Of a stretch of 64,000 bases of DNA, positions 6,681-51,117 are shown piece by piece. Numbering within the stretch: position 1 is the first letter of the stretch; the number at the start of each line of letters is the position of its first letter. Under the pieces are notes generated by a model. It did no database searches, was not told the DNA's origin, and worked only from the letters and a program-made list of their open reading frames with translations. This DNA comes from Bordetella sp. BOR01 (lineage in GTDB: Bacteria > Pseudomonadota > Gammaproteobacteria > Burkholderiales > Burkholderiaceae_B). The DNA lies in assembly GCF_019218885.1 (NCBI RefSeq), contig NZ_JAHUWT010000001.1:1-64000 (forward strand), written 5' to 3'. A program made the position numbers and the translations under genes.

Positions 6681-7772
6681 ATGGAATTCGAGCATCGGCC
6701 CGTGCTGCTGGAGCCGACGGTGGATGCGTTGCTGCTGGCCGGTTTCGGCGGCAAGGGCGCGGCACGGTCGGCTGGGCAGGATGGTGCGCAGGCCGACGCG
6801 CGGGCGCAGCGAGGTGTGTTCGTCGATGGCACCTTCGGGCGCGGCGGCCACAGCCGCGAGCTGCTGGGGCGGCTGGGGCGCGAGGCGCGGTTGGTGGTGT
6901 TCGACAAGGATCCCCAGGCGATTGCGGTGGCCACCGAACTGGCCGCACGCGACACCCGGGTGACGGTCGTGCATGAGGGGTTTGCCACCATGCGCGAAGA
7001 GTTGGCGGCGCGCGGCATCGAGGCAATCGATGGCGTGATGCTGGACCTGGGGGTGTCTTCCCCTCAGTTGGATGATGCCGGGCGGGGTTTTTCGTTCATG
7101 CGCGAAGGCCCGCTCGACATGCGAATGGATACGACCCGCGGCCCCACGGTTGCGGATTGGCTGGCGCAAGCCAGCGTGGATGAGATGCGGGAGGTCATAG
7201 CAGATTATGGCGAAGAACGGTTTGCTTTTCAGGTTGCAAAGGCGATTGCTGCTCGCCGCGCAACACGGCCGCTGCGCACCACGCTCGAGCTTGCCGAGTG
7301 CGTCGCCAGCGCCGTCCGCACGCGCGAAAAGGGGCAGCATCCGGCCACACGCACCTTTCAGGCTCTACGGATTTACATCAATCGGGAGCTCGAAGAGCTC
7401 GCGCGCGCCCTCGCGTCAGCTTTAGAGCTGCTTGCCCCGGGGGGGAGGTTGGCGGTGATCAGCTTTCATTCGCTTGAAGACCGCATGGTCAAGCAGTGCA
7501 TCGCGGCGGCGGCCAGGCCGGCTGCCGCGCATGCGCGCCTGCCCCTGCGCGAAAGCGAGTTGCCGCAGCCACTGGTACGTTCCCTGGGGCGTGTGCAGGC
7601 CGACGATGACGAGATTGCCGGCAATGCGCGGGCCCGATCGGCCGTGTTGCGGGTGGCCGAACGCACCGCGACGCCGCTGGATACTGACAGTGCGGCGCGA
7701 TTCGTGCCCGCGATGCGCGTACCGGGCGAAGCTGCGCCTGTGCGGCGCGGTGCCAAGCGGAGGCCGCACTAA
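6681..7772 (+). CDS. rsmH: 16S rRNA (cytosine1402-N4)-methyltransferase
   Basis: This 363-aa SAM-dependent enzyme methylates N4 of C1402 in the ribosomal P site. It starts with the family segment [16 protein letters not shown] and has the SAM loop [11 protein letters not shown], the [10 protein letters not shown] motif and the C-terminal [11 protein letters not shown]. Between residues ~19 and 43 there is an Ala/Gly/Arg-rich insertion not needed for the fold, and the C-terminal tail after the core is also extended, which explains the length above the ~310 usual. Its stop overlaps the ftsL start by 1 bp. Confidence 0.95.
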
Positions 7773-8062
7773 TGGGACGCGTGAGCCTGTTCCTGGCTAC
7801 CTTGCTCATGTTGTCGGCGATTTCGCTGGTGACCAGCCGGTATCAGTCACGTCAATTGTTTATTGAATTGGATCGCAGCAACGCCCAGGCGCGCACGCTG
7901 GACACCGACTGGCGCCGCTTGCAGCTCGAGCGCGCCGAACTGGCGCGCAACGCTCGCGTCGACCACGCGGCACGCCAGGATCTGAAGATGATCCCCATCG
8001 TGCCGGATCGCACGCTGTATGTGAACCAGGCGCCCGTGCCGGCCACCGGAGGCGCGCAATGA
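7772..8062 (+). CDS. ftsL: Cell division protein FtsL
   Basis: This 96-aa bitopic membrane protein has one N-terminal transmembrane helix (about residues 4-21) followed by a periplasmic coiled coil (LDRSNAQARTLDTDWRRLQLE). FtsL works with FtsB and FtsQ to activate FtsWI at the septum. Sequence similarity in this family is low, so the call rests on size, topology and position between rsmH and ftsI. Translational coupling is likely: 1-bp overlap upstream and ATGA overlap downstream. Confidence 0.88.
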   Translation: MGRVSLFLATLLMLSAISLVTSRYQSRQLFIELDRSNAQARTLDTDWRRLQLERAELARNARVDHAARQDLKMIPIVPDRTLYVNQAPVPATGGAQ

Positions 8063-9789
8063 AGCGCGTGCCGTTCTTCGACAACCCCGTACTGCGCGGG
8101 CAACTGCCCACGTGGCGGGCCCGCCTGGTGTTGGTGATGCTGTTCGGCGGTTTTGCCGTGCTGGCCGGCCGTGCCTTGTATCTGCAGGGGCTGTCGACCG
8201 AATTCCTGCAGCAGCAGGGCGAGCGCCGTTACGAACGCACCCTGACGCTGGCGGCCACCCGGGGCAAGATCCTGGATCGCAACGGCGTGGTGCTGGCATC
8301 CAGCGTGCCGGCGCGCGCCATCTGGGCCATTCCCGAAGACGTCAAGCCCGCCACCGGTGCGCAACTGGCCGATCTGGCCAAGTTGCTGGAGACCTCGGTG
8401 GCCGACCTGCGCGGCCGGCTGGCCGACGAGGATCGCAACTTCGTGTACCTGAAGCGCCAGGTGCCCATGGAGGTGGCCGACCAGATCAAGAAGCTGGACG
8501 TGCCCGGTATTCACCAGCAGCCCGAGACGCGGCGCTATTACCCCGACGGGGAGGTCACCGCGCATCTGGTGGGTTTCACCAGCGTCGAAGACAAGGGCCA
8601 GGAAGGGGTCGAACTGACGTTCGATGACCTGCTGTCGGGTACGCCCGGCAGCCGCCGCGTGATCAAGGACCGGTTGGGTCGCGTCATCGAGGACGTCCAG
8701 GCCGTGACCTCGCCGGTCAATGGCCGCGATCTGAACCTGTCGATCGATACACGGCTGCAGTACCTGGTATATCGCGAACTGAACGAAGCCATGCAGCGCC
8801 ACCAGGCTGGTGCGGCCAGCGCCATCATCATGGATGTGCGCACCGGAGAGATCCTGGCGCTGGCCAGCCTGCCCACGTTCGACCCGAATCGCCGCGAAAC
8901 TTTTCACACGCCCAATCTGCGCAACCGCGCCATTACCGATACGTTCGAACCCGGCTCGATCATGAAGCCCTTCACCGCCGCGCTGGCGCTGGACCTGGGC
9001 CGCATCAACATGAGCACGCAGTTCGAGACCGGCAATGGCGCCTTCCGCTATCAGGGCAGCACCATTCATGACGTCAGCCGCAACGGTACGCTGACGGTGG
9101 GCGGCGTGCTGCGCCGTTCCAGCAATATCGGCATGACGCTGATCTCGGAAAAACTCGAGTCGCGCGAGATGTGGGAACGCTTTACCGAACTGGGCTTTGG
9201 CCGTGCGCCGCAATTGGGTTTCCCCGGCGCCGCGCCGGGGCGCCTGCGCCCCTGGGACCGCTGGCGCCTGATCGAAAAAGCAACCATGGCCTATGGCTAC
9301 GGGCTGTCCGTTTCGCTGCTGCAGGTGGCGCGTGCCTATACCGTGTTCGCCCGCGACGGCGACATGGTGTCGCCCACGCTGATCAAGCGCGACAGCGATC
9401 CGACCAGCGTCAAGGTTTACAACCCCAAGGTGGCCCAATTGGTGCGCACCATGCTCGAGGCCGCCGCTGGTCCGGATGGTGCCAAGGCGGCGCAAGTGCA
9501 GGGCTATCGGGTAGCCGGCAAGAGTGGCACGGCGCGCAAGATCGTCGATGGCAAGTACAGCATGCAGCGCTATCGCAGCTCGTTCGTCGGGTTTGCGCCG
9601 GTGTCCAACCCGCGCATCGTGGTGGCCGTGACCATCGACGAGCCCAAGGTGGGCGGCTACTACGGCGGCGCCATCGCCGCGCCGCTGTTCTCGACCATTG
9701 TGGGCGGCAGCTTGCGCATGATGGGCGTGCAGCCCGATGCGCCGTTCGAGTCGACCATCGTGGCAGGCGTAAAGGAGCCGGCGCGATGA
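8059..9789 (+). CDS. ftsI: Peptidoglycan D,D-transpeptidase FtsI (PBP3)
   Basis: This 576-aa septal class B penicillin-binding protein cross-links septal peptidoglycan with FtsW. There is one membrane anchor near residues 25-45, the N-terminal pedestal with RGKILDRNG, then the transpeptidase domain. Active-site motifs are complete: S300-I-M-K303, S354-S-N356 and K488-S-G490. It starts within ftsL (ATGA overlap) and ends overlapping murEF by 4 bp. Confidence 0.96.
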   Translation: MKRVPFFDNPVLRGQLPTWRARLVLVMLFGGFAVLAGRALYLQGLSTEFLQQQGERRYERTLTLAATRGKILDRNGVVLASSVPARAIWAIPEDVKPATGAQLADLAKLLETSVADLRGRLADEDRNFVYLKRQVPMEVADQIKKLDVPGIHQQPETRRYYPDGEVTAHLVGFTSVEDKGQEGVELTFDDLLSGTPGSRRVIKDRLGRVIEDVQAVTSPVNGRDLNLSIDTRLQYLVYRELNEAMQRHQAGAASAIIMDVRTGEILALASLPTFDPNRRETFHTPNLRNRAITDTFEPGSIMKPFTAALALDLGRINMSTQFETGNGAFRYQGSTIHDVSRNGTLTVGGVLRRSSNIGMTLISEKLESREMWERFTELGFGRAPQLGFPGAAPGRLRPWDRWRLIEKATMAYGYGLSVSLLQVARAYTVFARDGDMVSPTLIKRDSDPTSVKVYNPKVAQLVRTMLEAAAGPDGAKAAQVQGYRVAGKSGTARKIVDGKYSMQRYRSSFVGFAPVSNPRIVVAVTIDEPKVGGYYGGAIAAPLFSTIVGGSLRMMGVQPDAPFESTIVAGVKEPAR

Positions 9790-42844: not shown

Positions 42845-43717
42845 TCAGAAAGCCTGCAGGTGCGGGCTTACCAATTCGTGCAGCGCATCGACAATGGCCG
42901 GGTTGCCGGCCACCACGCGCCCGCCCACGGGCCAGGGGTCTTGCCGATGCATGTCGTGGCATACGCCGCCGGCCTCGCGCAGGATCAGCGTGCCTGCCGC
43001 CACATCCCATGGGGCCAGGCCCATTTCCCAGTAGCCGTCGTACCGCCCGCAGGCAGTCCAGACCAGGTCCAGTGCGGCCGCGCCCATGCGCCGCACGCCA
43101 CGGGCGGTGCAGATGGCGTCTTGCAGCATGGGCATGTACTGGCTGGCGAACGAGAAATCGCGGAACGGGAATCCTGTGGCCAGTACCGCATCGCTTAGCG
43201 ACTGCGTGCGCGAGCATGAGATGCGCCGGCCATTGAGCCAGGCGCCGATGCCATGCACGGCGGTAAACAGTTCTTCGCGGCAAGGGTCGTAGACGACCCC
43301 GATCACCGGCGTGTCTTCGGAGAGCGGACCGCCGCCGGACACACGCGTACCGGCATGCGCGACCAGGGCGATCGATACGGCATAGTGCGGGATGCCGTGC
43401 AGGAAATTGGTGGTGCCGTCCAGCGGATCGATATACCAGGTGGCCGGCCCTTGCGCCGCGCCGCCGGTTTCTTCGGCCACGATGCCGAATTCGGGCGTGC
43501 GCGCCTGCAGCGATTCGATGATGGCCGTCTCGGCTTCGCGGTCGGCCTGCGATACCAGGTCGTTGCGGGCCTTGTGGTCGATCACCAGGTCTGCGCGGTT
43601 GTGCGCGTACGATTGCAGGATCGCGGCGCCTGTATGGGCCGCCGAGACGGCCGTGTCGATGGCGGCAGCCAAGTCCAGCGGTGGGGCCTGGGTCGTGGTA
43701 GGTTCTGTCGTCGGCAT
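42845..43717 (-). CDS. Inositol monophosphatase family protein (SuhB-like)
   Basis: This 290-aa Mg2+-dependent phosphatase has motif A (VAEETGG), motif B (YIDPLDGTTNFLHGIP) and the C-terminal WDVAAGTLILREAGG. SuhB-type members dephosphorylate inositol phosphates and also act in rRNA antitermination complexes; which applies here is unknown. The ATG at 43717 is preferred to an upstream one at 43753 because the latter adds a stretch outside the fold. It is convergent with the fadD-like gene. Confidence 0.88.
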   Translation of the reverse strand: MPTTEPTTTQAPPLDLAAAIDTAVSAAHTGAAILQSYAHNRADLVIDHKARNDLVSQADREAETAIIESLQARTPEFGIVAEETGGAAQGPATWYIDPLDGTTNFLHGIPHYAVSIALVAHAGTRVSGGGPLSEDTPVIGVVYDPCREELFTAVHGIGAWLNGRRISCSRTQSLSDAVLATGFPFRDFSFASQYMPMLQDAICTARGVRRMGAAALDLVWTACGRYDGYWEMGLAPWDVAAGTLILREAGGVCHDMHRQDPWPVGGRVVAGNPAIVDALHELVSPHLQAF

Positions 43718-43866
43718 GAAAGTCAGTGTAAGCCTATGCGGCTGCCCGCCCACCGATTGGCCGCAAATCGTGGCGTTCGGCGTGGCTTTCAGCCAACGTC
43801 ACAGGTTTGTCGCTTTGAGCATGCTGGCACCGCGCCACGCTTACCCCCCCAGATTGTCTTGTATCC

Positions 43867-45753
43867 ATGCCTGCTTACGTACCCCTGGTTCCCCCTGCCG
43901 CCGAATTTGGCCCCGATGGGCAATTCCGCAGCGCCTTGTACGGCGATGTCTACCATTGCACCGACAGCGCGCTGGGGCAGGCCGAGCATGTGTTCCTGCG
44001 TGGCAACGGCCTGCCGGAACGCTGGCGGGGCAGGCAGGGCTTCACGGTGTGCGAGACCGGTTTCGGCCTGGGCCTGAATTTCCTGGCGCTATGGCATGCC
44101 TGGCGCAACGACCCGGCGCGGCCGCGCAGGTTGCACATGCTGTCGATCGAGGCGCATCCGTTTGCCCAGGCGGCCTTGCGCGGCTGGCTGCGGCAATTGG
44201 CGCCCGAGGCGCTGCGGGGCCTGGTGGGCCAGTTGGCCGACCAATGGCCCGCCTGCCTGCCCGGCCTGCATCGCCTGGAATTCGAAGACGGGGCGGTGAC
44301 GCTGACCCTGGCATTCGGCACCGCGGCCGCGCTGGCACCGCAATTGCGCGCCAGCGTCGACGCCTATTTTCTGGATGGCTTCGCGCCTGATCGCAATCCG
44401 GATCTTTGGCAGCCTGCGCTGATGCGCGATCTGGCGCGGCTGGCCGCACCCGATGCCACGCTGGCTACGTGGGCCAGCGCGGGTCATGTACGCCAGGCTT
44501 TGCGAGATGCGGGGTTCCAGGTACGCAGGCAGGCTGGCTACGGCGGCAAATGGCATATGACAGCGGGCGTGCGCGCGCCCCAGTCCGCACCGGCGGTGGA
44601 CGATGCCTGGGCCGTGGCGCGCGCCGCCGATGGCGCGGGTAGCGGCGAAGTCCTGGTGGTGGGCGGCGGCCTGGCCGGGGCGGGCGTGGCCCAGGCCTTG
44701 GCCCTGCGCGGCCGGCAAGTATGCGTGATCGATGCTGCCGGACCCGATTCGGCGCACGCGGGGCACGTGGCCGCGGCGCTGACGCCGGTCATTGCGCGCG
44801 ACGACAATCCACGCGCCCGCCTGTCGCGGGCCGGCAGCCAGCGGGCGATGGCGCGCTGGGGCGCCTTGCCGCCCGGCGCGGCGCCCTGGCGTTGCGGCAC
44901 GCTGCAGCTCGAGCGCGATGCCGGCCGCACCGCGGCCTTGGAAGAAACGCTGCGGCAATTGCAATTTCCCGCCGACTGGGTGCGTACGGTCGACCGCGAC
45001 GAAGCGGCCGCGCTGGCGGGTGTGCCGCTGGCGCGGGGGGGCGTGTTCTTTGCCGACGGCCTGCTGGTACGGCCCGCGTCCCTGATTCCGGCCCTGCTGG
45101 ACACCCCCGGCGTGCGCCGGATCGGCGCGCAGGCGGCTGCGTTGCGCCGCGTGGCCGACGGCTGGCAGGTGCTGGCGGCCGGCGGGAAAGTCCTGGGGCA
45201 GGGCGCTACCGTCGTGCTTGCCAATGCGTTCGGCGCGCAGGCGTTGCTGCGCGCCAGCGGCCTGCTGGATGCGTTGCCGCGCATGGCACAGATGCACGCG
45301 CTGGCGGGCGAGGTCAGCCTGCTGCCCGCCCAGGGGTGGGCCGGGGGGCCGCGCTGCATCGTGGGCGGCGAGGGCTACCTGCTGCCCCCGGTCGACGGCT
45401 GGTGCGTGGCGGGCAGCACCTACGAACACGGCGCCGCAGTGGCCGAAGTCAGCGCCTGCGGCCAACAGGCCAATCTACGCAAGGCAGCCGGGCTGCTGGG
45501 CCAACTGCCCGCTGGGTGGGCGGGCCTGCAGCCCGGGCAGTTGCCCGGGTGGGCCGGCTGGCGGGCTGTGCTGCCCGGGCGCCTGCCCGCGGTGGGACCG
45601 CTGGCGCATGCGCCGGGGGTGTGGCTGGCTGCCGGTTATGCCTCGCGCGGGCTGAGTTGGTCGGCCTTGACGGGCGATTTGATCGCCGCTTGCCTGCAAG
45701 GCGAACCCCTGCCGCTGCCGGCTGATCTGCTGGCGGCCGTGGCTCCGCGCTAG
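43867..45753 (+). CDS. mnmC: Bifunctional tRNA 5-methylaminomethyl-2-thiouridine biosynthesis protein MnmC
   Basis: This 628-aa fusion modifies the wobble uridine of certain tRNAs. The N-terminal SAM methyltransferase domain (residues ~1-240) has [14 protein letters not shown] and the [10 protein letters not shown] motif. The C-terminal FAD oxidoreductase domain starts near residue 261 with [19 protein letters not shown]. Together they convert cmnm5 through nm5 to mnm5. Both halves are complete in length. It is a single-gene unit; the 110-bp gap before the phosphatase gene carries the divergent promoters. Confidence 0.93.
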
Positions 45754-45998
45754 GCCCCGCGGCCGCGCAGAAGCCATCGCGATACCGGACGATCACCGCA
45801 AAACCGTGCCGTAGCGCGCGTCCGGCAGCCTTGGGCGGGGCGAGAGTAAGTAGTCGTTGTGCCCGCCAGCATGGGGATTTCTGACGGGTCCCGCGTGTCA
45901 ATTCCACACGAAAAAAGGGACCGAGTTTATTTCGAAGGCCAAATCCGTCAAAATAGCGTCTTTTAATTGGTTTTTTGGCTTAAGCCGGGGGATGCTCT

Positions 45999-48224
45999 GT
46001 GCCGCCCAAATTCGACTATGCCCATACTACCCAGCTCGAATCCGTCGAGCTGCTGTCGTCGCGTCCAAGCCGCATCGATTTCGATGCGGGCGACGGTTTG
46101 CATCTGGTAGTCGAGGCGCATGCGCCTGGTGTGTTTCGCCTGCGCTGCGGCGAGGCGAATCTCCTTACTGACGAGAAGCCCGGCGCACGCGCGCGGGCCA
46201 TCGCTGAAATGCTGCTGGCGCGCCAAGAGGCCGTCAGCGAATGCACCATCGCGCCGCGTGACGACGGCAGCGGTTGGCGCATTGTCCAGGGCGATGTCGC
46301 ACTGGAAATCCAGTCCGATCCTGTGCGCATCACGCTGTATCGCGGCGACGCCCCGATTCTGGCGTCCGACGCTTCGGCGCACGAGCCCGCTTTCGGCCAC
46401 AACGCGCTCGATGAAGCCGAGCATGCCGTCTGGAACGCCGCGTTCGCGCTCGAGGCCGGTGAACGTGTCTATGGGCTGGGCGAAACCCCGGGCGACCTGA
46501 ACCGCCGCGACGAAGCGGTGGTGTCCGACGACCCGGAACATCGCGCCCTGCCGCTGGCCTGGAGCCCCCGGGGCTGGGGGGTGTACGTCAATACCATGCG
46601 ACGCGTGCAGCATGGCGTGGGTGTGACACCCGCCGACACCGCCTATACCGTGGCGGTCGAAGAGGGCGTGCTGGACCTGTTCCTGTTCGCCGGCGAACCC
46701 GGCGAGATCCTGAACCAATACACGGCCCTGACCGGCCGTGCCGGGCAGCCGGTGCTGTGGGCCATGGGTGCCTGGTTGCAGCAGGCCGAGGGCGAAATGC
46801 CCACGGAAACGGCGGCCCTGGTCGCCCAGATGCGTGAAATGCAACTGCCGCTGGACGCCGTCAAGCTGGCCCCGCCCGCGGCCTGGGGCTTCCAGGCCGA
46901 CAAGACCGTGTTCGAATGGGATGCACAGCGTTTTCCCGACGCGCGCCAGATGCTGGCCTTGTTCCACAAGCACCACGTGCACGTGGCCGCCACCGGCTTC
47001 CCGGGCGTGATCAAGTCCAGCCTGCTGTTCGAGGAACTGGAAGACCGCGGCTGGCTGCTGACGCGCGACGATGGCAGCGCCCAGGTATTCGACGGCAACG
47101 CCGTTACCGCCGGCCGGCCTTACGGCCTGCTGGACCTGACTTACCGCGACGTCTACAACCTGTGGATCGAACGCCACCGCCAGTTGCTCGAAGACGGCCT
47201 GGACGCGCCTGCATGTGACGCCCAGATCGCCATTCCCGACGGTGTCAGCGCGCGCAACGGCGAAACCGGCGCCGCGCTGCGCACCATGTACCCGCTGCTG
47301 GCGCGGCGGGCGTTGTTCGATGCCGTGGCCGGCCACAAGGTGCCGCCCGAAGGGGTGGTGCCCAGCACCGACCTTTTCCCCGCGGCGCAGCGCCTGCCCT
47401 GGCAAGTCGGCCCGCAAGTCACCAACGACTGGGCCGGCCTGCAGCACACCCTGCGTACGGCCTTGTCCATCGGCGCCAGCGGCGTGCCGGTGCAAGTGCA
47501 TTCCATCGGCTCGGCCACCGCGCCGCTGGACGGCATGACGCCCGAGCTGTACCTGCGCTGGCTGACGGCCGGCGTGTTCTCGGCCAATTTCTGCTTCCAG
47601 GGCGTTTCCGCCTTGCTGCCCTGGTCGTTTGGCGACGCCGCGCTCGGGCAGGCCCGCACCTGGCTGCAATGGCGCTATCGCCTGATTCCGTACGTGCTGG
47701 GCGCCATCGAAGATTCCGTGCGTACCGGCCTGCCCGTGCAGCGTTCCATGGCGCTGAGCTTCCCGCACGATCCCGCCGCCCACGACTGGGACCTGCAATA
47801 CCTGCTGGGCCCGGCGCTGCTGGTGGCACCGGTTACCCAGCCTGGCAACAGCGTGCGCGTATACCTGCCCAAGGGCGAGGCTTGGTGGGACCTGAACACC
47901 GGCCACCGCTATGAAGGCGGCACCACCTGGACGATCGAGTGCGGTACCGACAAGTTCCCGGTCTTTGGCCGCGAAGGGCACATGCTGTGCCTGGGGCCGG
48001 TGGCGCAGCATGCCGGCGAATTCAATTCGGCCCGCATCCTGGACGAAGTCTGGATGTTCGGCATGCCCATGCACAACCCCGTGGTCATGCGCAACAAGAT
48101 CCGCGTGATGCAGATGCAGGGCTCCAGCTATATCAAGGGCCTGGAAGGCCTGCGCATCCTTCCCTCTGAAGGCCTGGAGGTCAAGCGGCGCGGCGCCGAA
48201 GTTCGCATTTCGCGAGCTAGGTAG
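45999..48224 (+). CDS. GH31-family protein, probably catalytically degenerate
   Basis: This 741-aa protein has the GH31 architecture: N-terminal beta-sandwich (to ~250, with GERVYGLGETPGDLNRRD), TIM barrel (~260-575) and C-terminal beta domains. Aligned by eye to YicI-type alpha-xylosidases the key positions differ: the sugar-binding Asp of HLDxxW is A291 (KLAPPA), the nucleophile region KTDFGE is ACDAQI with only D407 left, the acid/base Asp of GGD is Q473 (GPQ), and HDIGG is HSIGS (S502). The frame is intact, so it is not a decayed pseudogene. Start is GTG 45999 after a G-rich stretch. A non-hydrolytic role is possible. Confidence 0.78.
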   Translation: MPPKFDYAHTTQLESVELLSSRPSRIDFDAGDGLHLVVEAHAPGVFRLRCGEANLLTDEKPGARARAIAEMLLARQEAVSECTIAPRDDGSGWRIVQGDVALEIQSDPVRITLYRGDAPILASDASAHEPAFGHNALDEAEHAVWNAAFALEAGERVYGLGETPGDLNRRDEAVVSDDPEHRALPLAWSPRGWGVYVNTMRRVQHGVGVTPADTAYTVAVEEGVLDLFLFAGEPGEILNQYTALTGRAGQPVLWAMGAWLQQAEGEMPTETAALVAQMREMQLPLDAVKLAPPAAWGFQADKTVFEWDAQRFPDARQMLALFHKHHVHVAATGFPGVIKSSLLFEELEDRGWLLTRDDGSAQVFDGNAVTAGRPYGLLDLTYRDVYNLWIERHRQLLEDGLDAPACDAQIAIPDGVSARNGETGAALRTMYPLLARRALFDAVAGHKVPPEGVVPSTDLFPAAQRLPWQVGPQVTNDWAGLQHTLRTALSIGASGVPVQVHSIGSATAPLDGMTPELYLRWLTAGVFSANFCFQGVSALLPWSFGDAALGQARTWLQWRYRLIPYVLGAIEDSVRTGLPVQRSMALSFPHDPAAHDWDLQYLLGPALLVAPVTQPGNSVRVYLPKGEAWWDLNTGHRYEGGTTWTIECGTDKFPVFGREGHMLCLGPVAQHAGEFNSARILDEVWMFGMPMHNPVVMRNKIRVMQMQGSSYIKGLEGLRILPSEGLEVKRRGAEVRISRAR

Positions 48225-48234
48225 GTTCCTCCCC

Positions 48235-48300
48235 GAAGCGCTGCGCGCTTCCCCCCAGGGGGCGACGCTGGCGGACCGGCGGAGCCGGCTCCGCTGCGTC
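48235..48300 (+). repeat. REP-like intergenic palindromic element
   Basis: Three stems lie close together: GAAGCGC (48235-48241) with GCGCTTC (48245-48251); a C-run/G-run stem near 48252-48262; and a perfect 16-bp palindrome GCGGAGCCGGCTCCGC (48279-48294) bracketed by GACGC (48264-48268) and GCGTC (48296-48300). The block closely follows the GH31 stop. The layout is that of a dispersed betaproteobacterial intergenic repeat, but copy number cannot be checked here. Confidence 0.5.
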
Positions 48301-48383
48301 CCCGGTCTAGTGGCACCTGTTTTGTGTGGCGGGGGGTGTGCTATGGTTCGGCGCGCGTCGGACCGCGCCCGGTCGCCTTTTTT

Positions 48384-48427
48384 ATAACTAAAAGTTATTA
48401 AAAAGAGAACAAACTGTCGTTCTCTTT
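48384..48427 (+). promoter_or_regulatory. Dyad-rich AT island upstream of metNIQ
   Basis: Two adjacent inverted repeats: ATAACT (48384-48389) with AGTTAT (48393-48398), and AAAGAGAAC (48402-48410) with GTTCTCTTT (48419-48427), a perfect 9-bp dyad with an 8-bp spacer. The island stands out from the GC-rich surroundings. It is a likely operator or leader structure for the methionine importer; no known SAM riboswitch core was recognised. Confidence 0.55.
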
Positions 48428-48457
48428 GGATGTGTGGTCCGCCACAATCGCAACGTC

Positions 48458-49546
48458 ATGATTCACATCGAAAACCTCTCAAAGACCTACGCTACCCCGC
48501 ACGGACGCTTTGAGGCATTGCGCGACATCAGCCTGCATATCGAGCCGGGCGAGGTGTTCGGCATCATTGGTCCCAGTGGGGCCGGCAAAAGCACCCTGGT
48601 TCAATGCATCAACTTGCTTGAGCGCCCCGATAGCGGCGAGATCGTCATTGGCGGCACGGCCCTGACCGGCCTGGACGAGGCCCGGTTGCGCAGTCAGCGT
48701 CGCCGCATCGGCATGGTGTTCCAGGGGTTCAACCTGCTGGCGCGCCGCACGGTGTACGGCAATGTGGCCTTGCCGCTGGAAATCGCCGGCTTGCCAAGCG
48801 CGCAGATCCCGGCCAAGGTGGAACGGCTGCTGGCATTGGTGGGCCTGGAACACCTGCGCGATCGCTATCCCAGCCAGATCAGCGGCGGCCAGAAGCAGCG
48901 GGTGGGCATTGCCCGGGCGCTGGCCAACGACCCGGATGTGCTGCTGAGCGACGAGGCCACGTCGGCGCTGGACCCGGAAACCACGCACAACATCCTGGCG
49001 CTGTTGCGCGACATCAACCGCCAGACCGGCGTTACCGTGGTGATGATCACGCACCAGATGGAAGTGGTGCGCGAGATCTGCGACCGGGTGGCCGTGCTGT
49101 CGCAGGGCGAAGTCGTGGAGATGGGCCGCACGCAAGATATTTTTGCCACGCCGCGCCACGAGGTCACGCGCGCCATGGTGTCGGCCGCCACGGCTTCGGA
49201 CCTGACCGATGCCACCTTGGCGGCCACCCGTGAACGCATTGCCGAGCTGCAGGCCGCGCGGCCCGACAGCGTCGTGCGCTTGCTGCGCTTGCGGCTGGCC
49301 GGCGGCGCCTCGGCGGGCACGTTGCTGTCCGACCTGACGCGCCAGCATGAGCTGGACGTCAGCCTGGTGCAGGCGCGCATCGAAGACATCCAGGGCGTTG
49401 CCGTTGGCACTTTGTTCGTGCTGGTGCAAGGCACACCCGCCGCACTGGGCCAGGCCCTGGCCGCGTTGGCCGCCCGAGATATTCCTGTAGAAGAAATAGT
49501 CCATGAGTCCGCAACTGATCGACCTGCTCGCCACTTCGCTGCTTGA
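48458..49546 (+). CDS. metN: Methionine ABC importer ATPase MetN
   Basis: This 362-aa subunit energises methionine uptake. Walker A is GPSGAGKST, the signature ISGGQKQR, Walker B VLLSDEATSALD, and the C-terminal NIL domain (about 270-350) senses methionine and inhibits transport in homologues. The ATG at 48458 gives the usual MI-IENLSKTY start; an upstream GTG at 48434 would add eight residues and cannot be excluded. It overlaps metI by 44 bp. Confidence 0.92.
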   Translation: MIHIENLSKTYATPHGRFEALRDISLHIEPGEVFGIIGPSGAGKSTLVQCINLLERPDSGEIVIGGTALTGLDEARLRSQRRRIGMVFQGFNLLARRTVYGNVALPLEIAGLPSAQIPAKVERLLALVGLEHLRDRYPSQISGGQKQRVGIARALANDPDVLLSDEATSALDPETTHNILALLRDINRQTGVTVVMITHQMEVVREICDRVAVLSQGEVVEMGRTQDIFATPRHEVTRAMVSAATASDLTDATLAATRERIAELQAARPDSVVRLLRLRLAGGASAGTLLSDLTRQHELDVSLVQARIEDIQGVAVGTLFVLVQGTPAALGQALAALAARDIPVEEIVHESATDRPARHFAA

Positions 49547-50156
49547 TACGCTGCTGCTGGTGGGCGTGCCCAGCCTTATCGCCGTGCTGGTGGGCATTCC
49601 GCTGGGCGTGGTGCTGGTGGTGACCGCGCGCGGTGCGCTGTTGCAGAACCTGGCCGTGAATCGTTCGCTGGGCGCGGTCGTCAACATTACCCGCTCGGTG
49701 CCGTTCATCATCCTGATGGTGGCCATCATCCCGTTCACGCGGCTGATCGCGCAGACGTCCATTGGCACCACTGCGGCCATCGTGCCCTTGTCGGTGGCGG
49801 CCATCCCGTTCATGGCCCGCATTGCAGAAAACGCCATGCGCGAAGTGGATTCCGGCCTGCTGACCGCCGCGCGCGCCATGGGCGCCAGCCCGCTGCAGAT
49901 CATCGTGAAAGTGCTGCTGCCGGAATCGCTGCCCGGCCTGGTGGCCGCCACCATCGTCACCGTGATCAGCCTGATCGGCTATTCGGCCATGGCTGGCGCC
50001 ATCGGTGGCGGCGGCCTGGGCGACCTGGGCATACGCTACGGCTACCAGCGCTTCCAGCCCGATGTCATGCTGGCCGTCGTGGTGGTGCTGGTGGTGCTGG
50101 TGCAAGTCGTGCAGGGCCTGGGCGACTGGCTGGTACGCCGCATGTCGCATCGCTGA
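49503..50156 (+). CDS. metI: Methionine ABC importer permease MetI
   Basis: This 217-aa permease has five hydrophobic helices and the EAA-type coupling loop SGLLTAARAMGASPLQIIVKVLLPE that contacts MetN. It is transcribed as metN-metI-metQ. The ATG at 49503 lies within metN and is preceded by GAAGAAATAG. Length is typical (217 in homologues). Confidence 0.93.
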   Translation: MSPQLIDLLATSLLDTLLLVGVPSLIAVLVGIPLGVVLVVTARGALLQNLAVNRSLGAVVNITRSVPFIILMVAIIPFTRLIAQTSIGTTAAIVPLSVAAIPFMARIAENAMREVDSGLLTAARAMGASPLQIIVKVLLPESLPGLVAATIVTVISLIGYSAMAGAIGGGGLGDLGIRYGYQRFQPDVMLAVVVVLVVLVQVVQGLGDWLVRRMSHR

Positions 50157-50193
50157 GTTTTTGCCAAGCTTTCTTACCCGGAACCTACCCAAC

Positions 50194-50991
50194 ATGAGCA
50201 CCAAGTTCTTCAAGTCGCTGGCCGCGCTGGCCCTGGGCGCCACCGCTTTCGCACAACCCGCGCTGGCGCAGGACAAGCCGCTGAAAATCGGCGTCACCGC
50301 CGGTCCGCATGCGCAGATTTTCGACCTGGTCAAGCAGGAAGCCGCCAAGCAGGGCCTGCAGATCGAGGTCATCGAGTTCACCGACTATGTGCAGCCCAAT
50401 GCTGCGCTGGCCGCGGGCGACCTGGACATGAACAGCTACCAGCACCAGCCATACCTGGATTCGGCCAATGCCGATCGCGGCTACAAGCTGGCCAGCATCG
50501 CCAAGACGGTGATTTTCCCCATTGGCATCTACAGCAAGAAGGTCAAGAAGCTGGACGAGCTGAAGCAGGGCGCCCAGATCGGCTTACCCAACGACCCCAC
50601 CAACGGCGGCCGGGCCTTGCTGCTGCTGCAGGCCCAGGGGCTGATCAAACTGAACCCTGATGCAGGATTGAAGGCCACCCCGATCGACGTGGCCGAGAAT
50701 CCGCGCAAGCTGCGCTTCGTGGAACTGGACGCCGCCCAGTTGCCGCGTTCGCTGGACGACACCGACGCTTCGGCCGTGAATACCAACTTCGCACTGGAAG
50801 CCGGCCTGGATCCCAACAAGGACGCCATCGCTCGCGAATCGTCCGAGTCGCCCTATGCCAACGTGCTGGTGGTGCGCGAACAGGACCAGGCCCGCCCCGA
50901 TCTGCAAAAGCTGGTCGGCATCTATCAGAGCCCCGTCGTGAAGGCGTTTATCGCCGAGAAATTCAAGGGCGCGGTGGTCGCCGCCTGGTAA
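50194..50991 (+). CDS. metQ: Methionine-binding protein MetQ
   Basis: This 265-aa periplasmic receptor of the NlpA family delivers methionine to MetNI. Signal peptide about residues 1-26 (ending PALAQDKP), then KIGVTAGPHAQIFD and the substrate-site segment LDMNSYQHQPYLD. Unlike E. coli MetQ there is no lipobox Cys, so it is likely a soluble periplasmic protein cleaved by signal peptidase I. The ATG at 50194 is chosen because the frame upstream is metI out of frame. Confidence 0.92.
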   Translation: MSTKFFKSLAALALGATAFAQPALAQDKPLKIGVTAGPHAQIFDLVKQEAAKQGLQIEVIEFTDYVQPNAALAAGDLDMNSYQHQPYLDSANADRGYKLASIAKTVIFPIGIYSKKVKKLDELKQGAQIGLPNDPTNGGRALLLLQAQGLIKLNPDAGLKATPIDVAENPRKLRFVELDAAQLPRSLDDTDASAVNTNFALEAGLDPNKDAIARESSESPYANVLVVREQDQARPDLQKLVGIYQSPVVKAFIAEKFKGAVVAAW

Positions 50992-50998
50992 GCGATTT

Positions 50999-51027
50999 TT
51001 GACAATTTGACCCGCATCAGCCATAAT
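50999..51027 (+). promoter_or_regulatory. Near-consensus sigma-70 promoter of tRNA-Lys
   Basis: TTGACA (50999-51004) and CATAAT (51022-51027) have a 17-bp spacer. The predicted start near 51034 is eight bases before the tRNA 5' end, leaving a very short leader. Confidence 0.85.
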
Positions 51028-51041
51028 CTCTGGCTTCGGTC

Positions 51042-51117
51042 GGGTCGTTAGCTCAGTTGGTAGAGCAGCGGACTTTTAATCCGTTGGTCGCGCGTTCGAG
51101 TCGCGCACGACCCACCA
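51042..51117 (+). tRNA. tRNA-Lys (anticodon TTT)
   Basis: A 76-nt cloverleaf: acceptor GGGTCGT (51042-51048) pairs with ACGACCC (51107-51113), followed by A and an encoded CCA (51115-51117). The D arm is GCTCAGTTGGTAGAGC, the anticodon arm CGGA-CTTTTAA-TCCG puts TTT at 51075-51077, and the T arm contains GTTCGAGTC. It has its own promoter and terminator. U34 of this tRNA is a substrate of mnm5 modification, in which the mnmC product at 43867 acts. Confidence 0.97.

Follow-up and report, generated by a model that had tools for sequence, protein, structure and literature searches.

A GH31-family pseudoenzyme of the Alcaligenaceae with a strongly conserved C-terminal module and a syntenic link to an essential gene of Bordetella pertussis

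A gene of Bordetella sp. BOR01 (positions 45999..48224, forward strand) encodes a 741-residue protein that has the fold of glycoside hydrolase family 31 (GH31), lacks most of the GH31 active site and is most strongly conserved across the Alcaligenaceae in its last 66 residues. The gene lies in a 64,000-nucleotide stretch of DNA (contig NZ_JAHUWT010000001.1, positions 1 to 64,000), hereafter the window. The fold is a known one and the protein is a pseudoenzyme; what is unusual is that a frozen C-terminal tail goes together with a connection to an essential gene whose function is unassigned, and the case is stronger than an earlier sequence-only reading of this DNA had stated. A non-enzymatic job for a gene with such a lost active site is very probable, and we consider it fairly likely that the product is an essential pseudoenzyme in which the GH31 body, now dead, serves to present the C-terminal module to a conserved partner.

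Membership of GH31 is established by curated domain models and by a structural match. The barrel domain (PF01055; 46749..47696, forward strand), which is catalytically degenerate, scores 142.1 bits against a cut-off of 23.5, the C-terminal domain (PF21365) 87.7 bits against 24.4, and the N-terminal domain (PF13802) 42.4 bits against 27, while the equivalog model of YicI-type alpha-xylosidases (NF007940) gives 266.5 bits, below its cut-off of 606. The predicted fold is intact and matches YicI (1we5, 1xsi); model confidence is lower in the tail (pLDDT blocks of 73–89, and 46 at the last residue) than in the body. No signal peptide was seen by eye, and the protein is probably cytoplasmic. A long open reading frame on the opposite strand covers the same stretch and is in pieces in many relatives; shadow frames are common at high G+C content. 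The features of a pseudoenzyme, namely an enzyme fold, loss of the catalytic residues and selection on the gene across species, are all present, and the sequence-only description of a GH31-family gene with a recognizable fold and lost catalytic residues is confirmed by the Pfam models and the alignments.

The catalytic columns were assigned by phmmer and MAFFT alignments to YicI, which agree, and were scored in 149 unique sequences of the family and in 21 non-family GH31s. A291 (46869..46871) occupies the column of YicI D306, which is Asp in 15 of the 21 non-family proteins and in 4 of the 149 family sequences; D407 (47217..47219) occupies that of the nucleophile D416, where 108/149 family sequences have Asp and the remaining 41 carry 12 different residues (N, S, T, V, Q, K, L and others). 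Q473 (47415..47417) stands in the column of the acid/base D482 and S502 (47502..47504) in that of D511 of the HDIGG motif, both of which are Asp in all 21 non-family GH31s and in only 10/149 and 11/149 family sequences, respectively (all positions on the forward strand). The acid/base column is thus without Asp in 139 of the 149 family sequences, where it holds 13 other residues. All four catalytic Asp occur together in 2 of the 149 sequences, two of them in 9, one in 107 and none in 31. The assignment by eye of A291, Q473 and S502 to catalytic Asp columns beside a lone D407 is borne out by both methods, the alignment to YicI placing Asp at the nucleophile and Gln at the acid/base column, and the loss proves to be general among the orthologues, only the two sequences just mentioned being complete.

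A working retaining GH31 enzyme has an Asp nucleophile, an Asp acid/base and sugar-holding residues in the minus-one subsite; the window protein has the first of these (D407), has Gln for the second and has lost the third. Compared with the Escherichia coli alpha-xylosidase YicI, it has lost the acid/base, the two other Asp of the pocket and almost every sugar contact: F277, D306, W345, K414, R466, W479, D482, D511 and F515, which we take to be residues of the YicI subsite, are all replaced, and most of the replaced columns vary among orthologues. The tetrad is intact in ten relatives from other Burkholderiales (f22: L040, L042–L044; f38: L045, L047–L051), which are presumed to be active; all ten keep the subsite residues, with Tyr for F277. 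These relatives form the closest outgroup in the tree and show 28–37% identity, and the first part of the tail can still be aligned in them. L046 (f38), which is without the nucleophile and was therefore excluded from this set, is a non-family GH31 with a DADD pattern and DSAGGEH in place of KSDFGEQ, possibly a second, independently degenerating GH31.

A retaining GH31 mechanism without the acid/base and the sugar contacts is implausible and, judged from these columns, would be very unlikely to operate. It could still be supposed that the protein has acquired a new catalysis with other residues, or retains some GH31 chemistry from D407 and a different acid. The nucleophile column keeps its Asp more often than drift alone might leave, D414, E451, R465, R520 and others are invariant in 41 aligned sequences, and two sequences of genus g31 have all four Asp; however, the 41 family sequences without the nucleophile Asp and the variety of residues in the acid/base column speak against such chemistry, and known GH31 lyases retain the sugar pocket. 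We regard this explanation as unlikely. A lectin-like or sugar-sensing protein, in which a non-catalytic pocket still binds sugar or glycan and signals its presence, would agree with the intact predicted fold and with three pocket columns that are conserved in the family (P293 in 148/149, H501 in 145/149, Q534 in 123/149). Sugar binding in the old pocket is nevertheless unlikely because the contact residues have been replaced and mostly drift across orthologues; moreover, the peak of conservation lies far along the chain from the pocket, and B. pertussis is stated not to use sugars as a carbon source (PMC8116675). This reading we consider rather improbable. The earlier proposal of a conserved pseudoenzyme kept for another job, such as glycan binding, sensing or scaffolding, therefore stands as regards the other job, which is supported by the retention of the gene, the selection on it and the Asp counts among orthologues, and is unlikely to hold as regards sugar binding in the old pocket.

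At E 1e-10, the window protein has a match in 243 of the family's 268 genomes; seven weak matches in genus g22 (E 8e-15 to 4e-19) were left out of the orthologue count, which leaves 236/268. L106 and L107, the two of these seven that were aligned, each keep three of the four Asp and represent other GH31 proteins. The 25 family genomes without a match belong to g10 (1), g21 (8) and g22 (9) or are G036, G177 and five more, by elimination G213, G214 (g37), G232, G256 and G258. The orthologue is absent from 16 genomes of g22, two of g37 and nine that are reduced (0.7–0.9 Mb), and is present in two genomes of 1.6–1.7 Mb (G217, G218). The job is therefore not universal even within the family, and the absence from the nine reduced genomes suggests that it lies outside the smallest core set. 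The family is the Alcaligenaceae, with Bordetella, Achromobacter, Pusillimonas, Candidimonas, Paralcaligenes and others among the best 80 of 187 confirmed loci. Three loci (L193, L207, L208) come from metagenome bins titled 'Bordetella parapertussis' whose labels look wrong, since their orthologues are only 60–61% identical to that of the window and stand far from the Bordetella isolates among those best 80 of 187. Across the order, 45 of 399 genomes match, and the 34 of these outside the family are all more distant.

The protein tree unites 36 representatives of the family in a single clade (support 100/100) with a long stem of 1.1 changes per site; within it, L077 of genus g31 branches off first (support 98/90). 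Both sequences with all four Asp (L077, L237) belong to g31, as do seven of the nine with two Asp, which have the pattern xDSD; the two complete sequences may, from their residues, be active. Because L077, with its four Asp, already has the frozen tail, the tail was fixed before the last catalytic residues were lost. A tree of S7 and part of EF-G, several forks of which are weakly supported, likewise places g31 (G193) first among 16 family genomes that carry the gene. It puts g21 and g10 next to the genome of the window, and their absences would thus be later losses, as far as the partly weakly supported forks allow. It also puts g22 outside, with other families, so that the assignment of g22 to the family is perhaps doubtful. 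Because no S7 was detected in G214 (g37) or G644, g37 has no place in this tree. In g22 and g37, where the orthologue is absent, the matches to mnmC are also only weak.

The gene upstream (43867..45753, forward strand), which we take to be mnmC, is the conserved neighbour: it lies on the same strand at a distance of 24–559 bp in 30 of 32 wide family loci, chosen mostly as one per genus, although the flanks beyond it change between loci. In the exceptions, it is 3.6 kb away (L076) or not adjacent at all (L108 of G086, a genome with an mnmC elsewhere). In seven wide loci of the intact-tetrad relatives, no mnmC, suhB or M20 neighbours were found, and ABC-transporter-type matches occurred in six of the seven. 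Downstream in the window lie metN, metI and metQ (48434..50991, forward strand; start of metQ approximate), in the same order as bp2816–bp2818 of B. pertussis. They directly follow the gene in the window and in only some of the genera, and the functional hint that they might have given was therefore dropped. A tRNA-Lys (TTT) was detected by the tRNA scan just after metQ (51042–51117, forward strand); its wobble base is a textbook target of MnmC, and the link is probably a coincidence.

The close and retained adjacency would suit a protein that works with MnmC on the modification of wobble uridines in tRNA, the genes staying together because their proteins act together. In G092 (L127), however, the mnmC match is in two pieces and the pseudoenzyme gene is whole, which argues against an MnmC-dependent job, as do the two exceptional loci above and three of eight g21 genomes in which mnmC is kept and the pseudoenzyme gene is absent; we find this explanation improbable. 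The G092 locus also has about 2 kb of extra sequence between its fadD-like and suhB-like genes.

The tail (residues 676–741; 48024..48221, forward strand) was compared with the body in 41 aligned sequences, from which L100 (G176), with its frame broken before the tail, was excluded, as it was from the identity and dN/dS comparisons. Invariant residues make up 33 of the last 66 positions, against 46 of the first 675. Among 36 family representatives, mean pairwise identity rises from 0.399 in the N-terminal part through 0.494 in the barrel and 0.670 in residues 567–675 to 0.894 in the tail, whereas in the ten intact-tetrad relatives the corresponding values are 0.474, 0.660, 0.541 and 0.331. Conservation is thus inverted: the presumed active relatives are most alike in the barrel and least alike in the tail, and the Alcaligenaceae pseudoenzyme is most alike in the tail. 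In 16 genomes, the mean identity of the tail (0.856) compares with 0.898 for S7, 0.855 for the EF-G part and 0.433 for the body; its worst pair, at 0.636, falls below those of S7 (0.819) and EF-G (0.772), so the tail is held less evenly than either. Even in L041 and L105, whose tails have diverged most, identity to the tail of the window protein is 73% and 79%, respectively. This shift of constraint to the C-terminal 66 residues had escaped the sequence-only reading and refines its picture of a pseudoenzyme.

Within the genus (36 pairs), dN/dS is 0.009 in the tail, with a dS of 0.81 that is not reduced, and 0.083 in the barrel, so the body is also under purifying selection. Four-fold sites are as variable in the tail as elsewhere (1.68 and 1.71 bits; 15 and 74 sites), and this freedom of the synonymous sites places the constraint at the level of the protein. 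A DNA-level cause of the frozen tail (an overlapping RNA, a promoter or an overlapping gene) was rejected on these four-fold sites, on a search of Rfam with window positions 43000–51000, which gave no match up to E 0.1, and on the tRNA scan. In G176 (g27; L125, approximately 6883–9095 on the gene strand), body and tail lie in different frames and the tail is 81% identical, which may be an assembly error or a real break. This one case might suggest that the tail is a separate small protein, or that the DNA there is a promoter or an overlapping RNA, with the rest of the gene a passenger, a view made highly improbable by the free four-fold sites, the empty Rfam search, the selection on the body and the fact that body and tail share one frame with the same end residue in 36 of 37 representatives, L100 of G176 being the exception.

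The tail carries 12 Lys/Arg and 6 Asp/Glu. Rather than an addition, it probably represents an ancient portion of the GH31 C-terminal domain, as the structural alignment reaches the end of YicI and the first part of the tail aligns to the f22 sequences. Searches with the tail matched 10 of 300 genomes of the order, nine of them in the family and one a weak match in f22 (E 0.006); a tail profile run against 369 genomes of the class, a sample with few family members, matched only the genome of the window itself. Plasmids, phages and Pfam gave no match, and PDB sequences gave three, the best at E 0.81. A mobile or shared domain was accordingly rejected, and in the searches made, the tail is confined to the family.

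In B. pertussis, 396 genes are essential in both Bvg phases, seven of which have no assignable process; BP2815, a putative glycosyl hydrolase of unknown substrate, is the only one of the seven with strong homology to a conserved domain (PMC8116675). The screen disregards insertions in the last 10% of genes (PMC8116675). The gene metN is bp2816, followed by bp2817 and bp2818 (MetQ) (PMC9976334), and BP2816–BP2818 form a putative methionine importer locus (PMC9858536). Since metN immediately follows the pseudoenzyme gene both in the window and in G092, and BP2815 is of the glycosyl hydrolase type and stands directly before bp2816, BP2815 is taken here as the orthologue, on gene order and domain and not on comparison with a labelled record. 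The essentiality reported for BP2815 would by this synteny suggest that the pseudoenzyme is essential. The available text of PMC8116675 describes BP2815 as an enzyme and mentions neither a missing active site nor a conserved tail, and none of the titles and abstract openings listed in a literature search names the gene as a pseudoenzyme. The earlier remark that this appears not to be a described function accordingly holds for the function; the gene itself, as BP2815, is already on record and reported essential.

The essential pseudoenzyme proposed at the outset may have arisen as follows. The ancestral GH31 glycosidase would have been active. At the base of the family, the gene would have come to adjoin mnmC, and residues 676–741, the distal beta module, would have come under extreme constraint at the protein level; the catalytic Asp tetrad and the residues that contact the sugar would next have been lost stepwise, leaving a pseudoenzyme that became indispensable in the Alcaligenaceae. 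Today, the GH31 body would have no hydrolase chemistry left and act as a carrier, and the C-terminal module would be the working part, most likely an adaptor or scaffold that docks on a single essential partner of high conservation, either protein or RNA. The sequences show the loss of the pocket, its order and the inverted conservation, and the tail was not found elsewhere in the searches made; essentiality is reported by others and linked to this gene by gene order, and the docking we infer. A bolder form of this proposal, which is possible but distinctly tentative, makes the protein a new lineage-specific essential core factor, with BP2815 having no counterpart elsewhere: its tail would bind tightly to universal machinery (the ribosome, RNA polymerase or the division apparatus) and so evolve nearly as slowly as a ribosomal protein, the body being only a carrier.

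A comparable case is MKIP1, a dead GH13 branching enzyme of the plastid MatK splicing complex, described as also combining a carbohydrate-active fold, lost activity, a requirement for viability and a specialized interaction segment (PMC13172542). MKIP1 differs in being a GH13 protein of plant plastids with a 150 aa insertion, whereas the window protein is a bacterial GH31 in which an existing C-terminal module would serve a presumed partner. From YicI, the window protein also differs in that its C-terminal module is frozen, a region that varies among the intact GH31 relatives.

One of the seven essential B. pertussis genes without an assignable process is carried as a putative glycosyl hydrolase (PMC8116675). 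If its active site is truly non-working, the search for a substrate would be the wrong experiment, and the 66-residue tail would be the place to look; if the tail is confined to the family, its partner would belong to lineage-specific core biology and could be sought directly. The proposal, if true, would clearly document how an enzyme fold becomes an essential non-enzymatic part, with intermediates in living species (four or two Asp in g31, one or none in most others), in a family most of which has lost the active site and to which B. pertussis, the agent of whooping cough, belongs.
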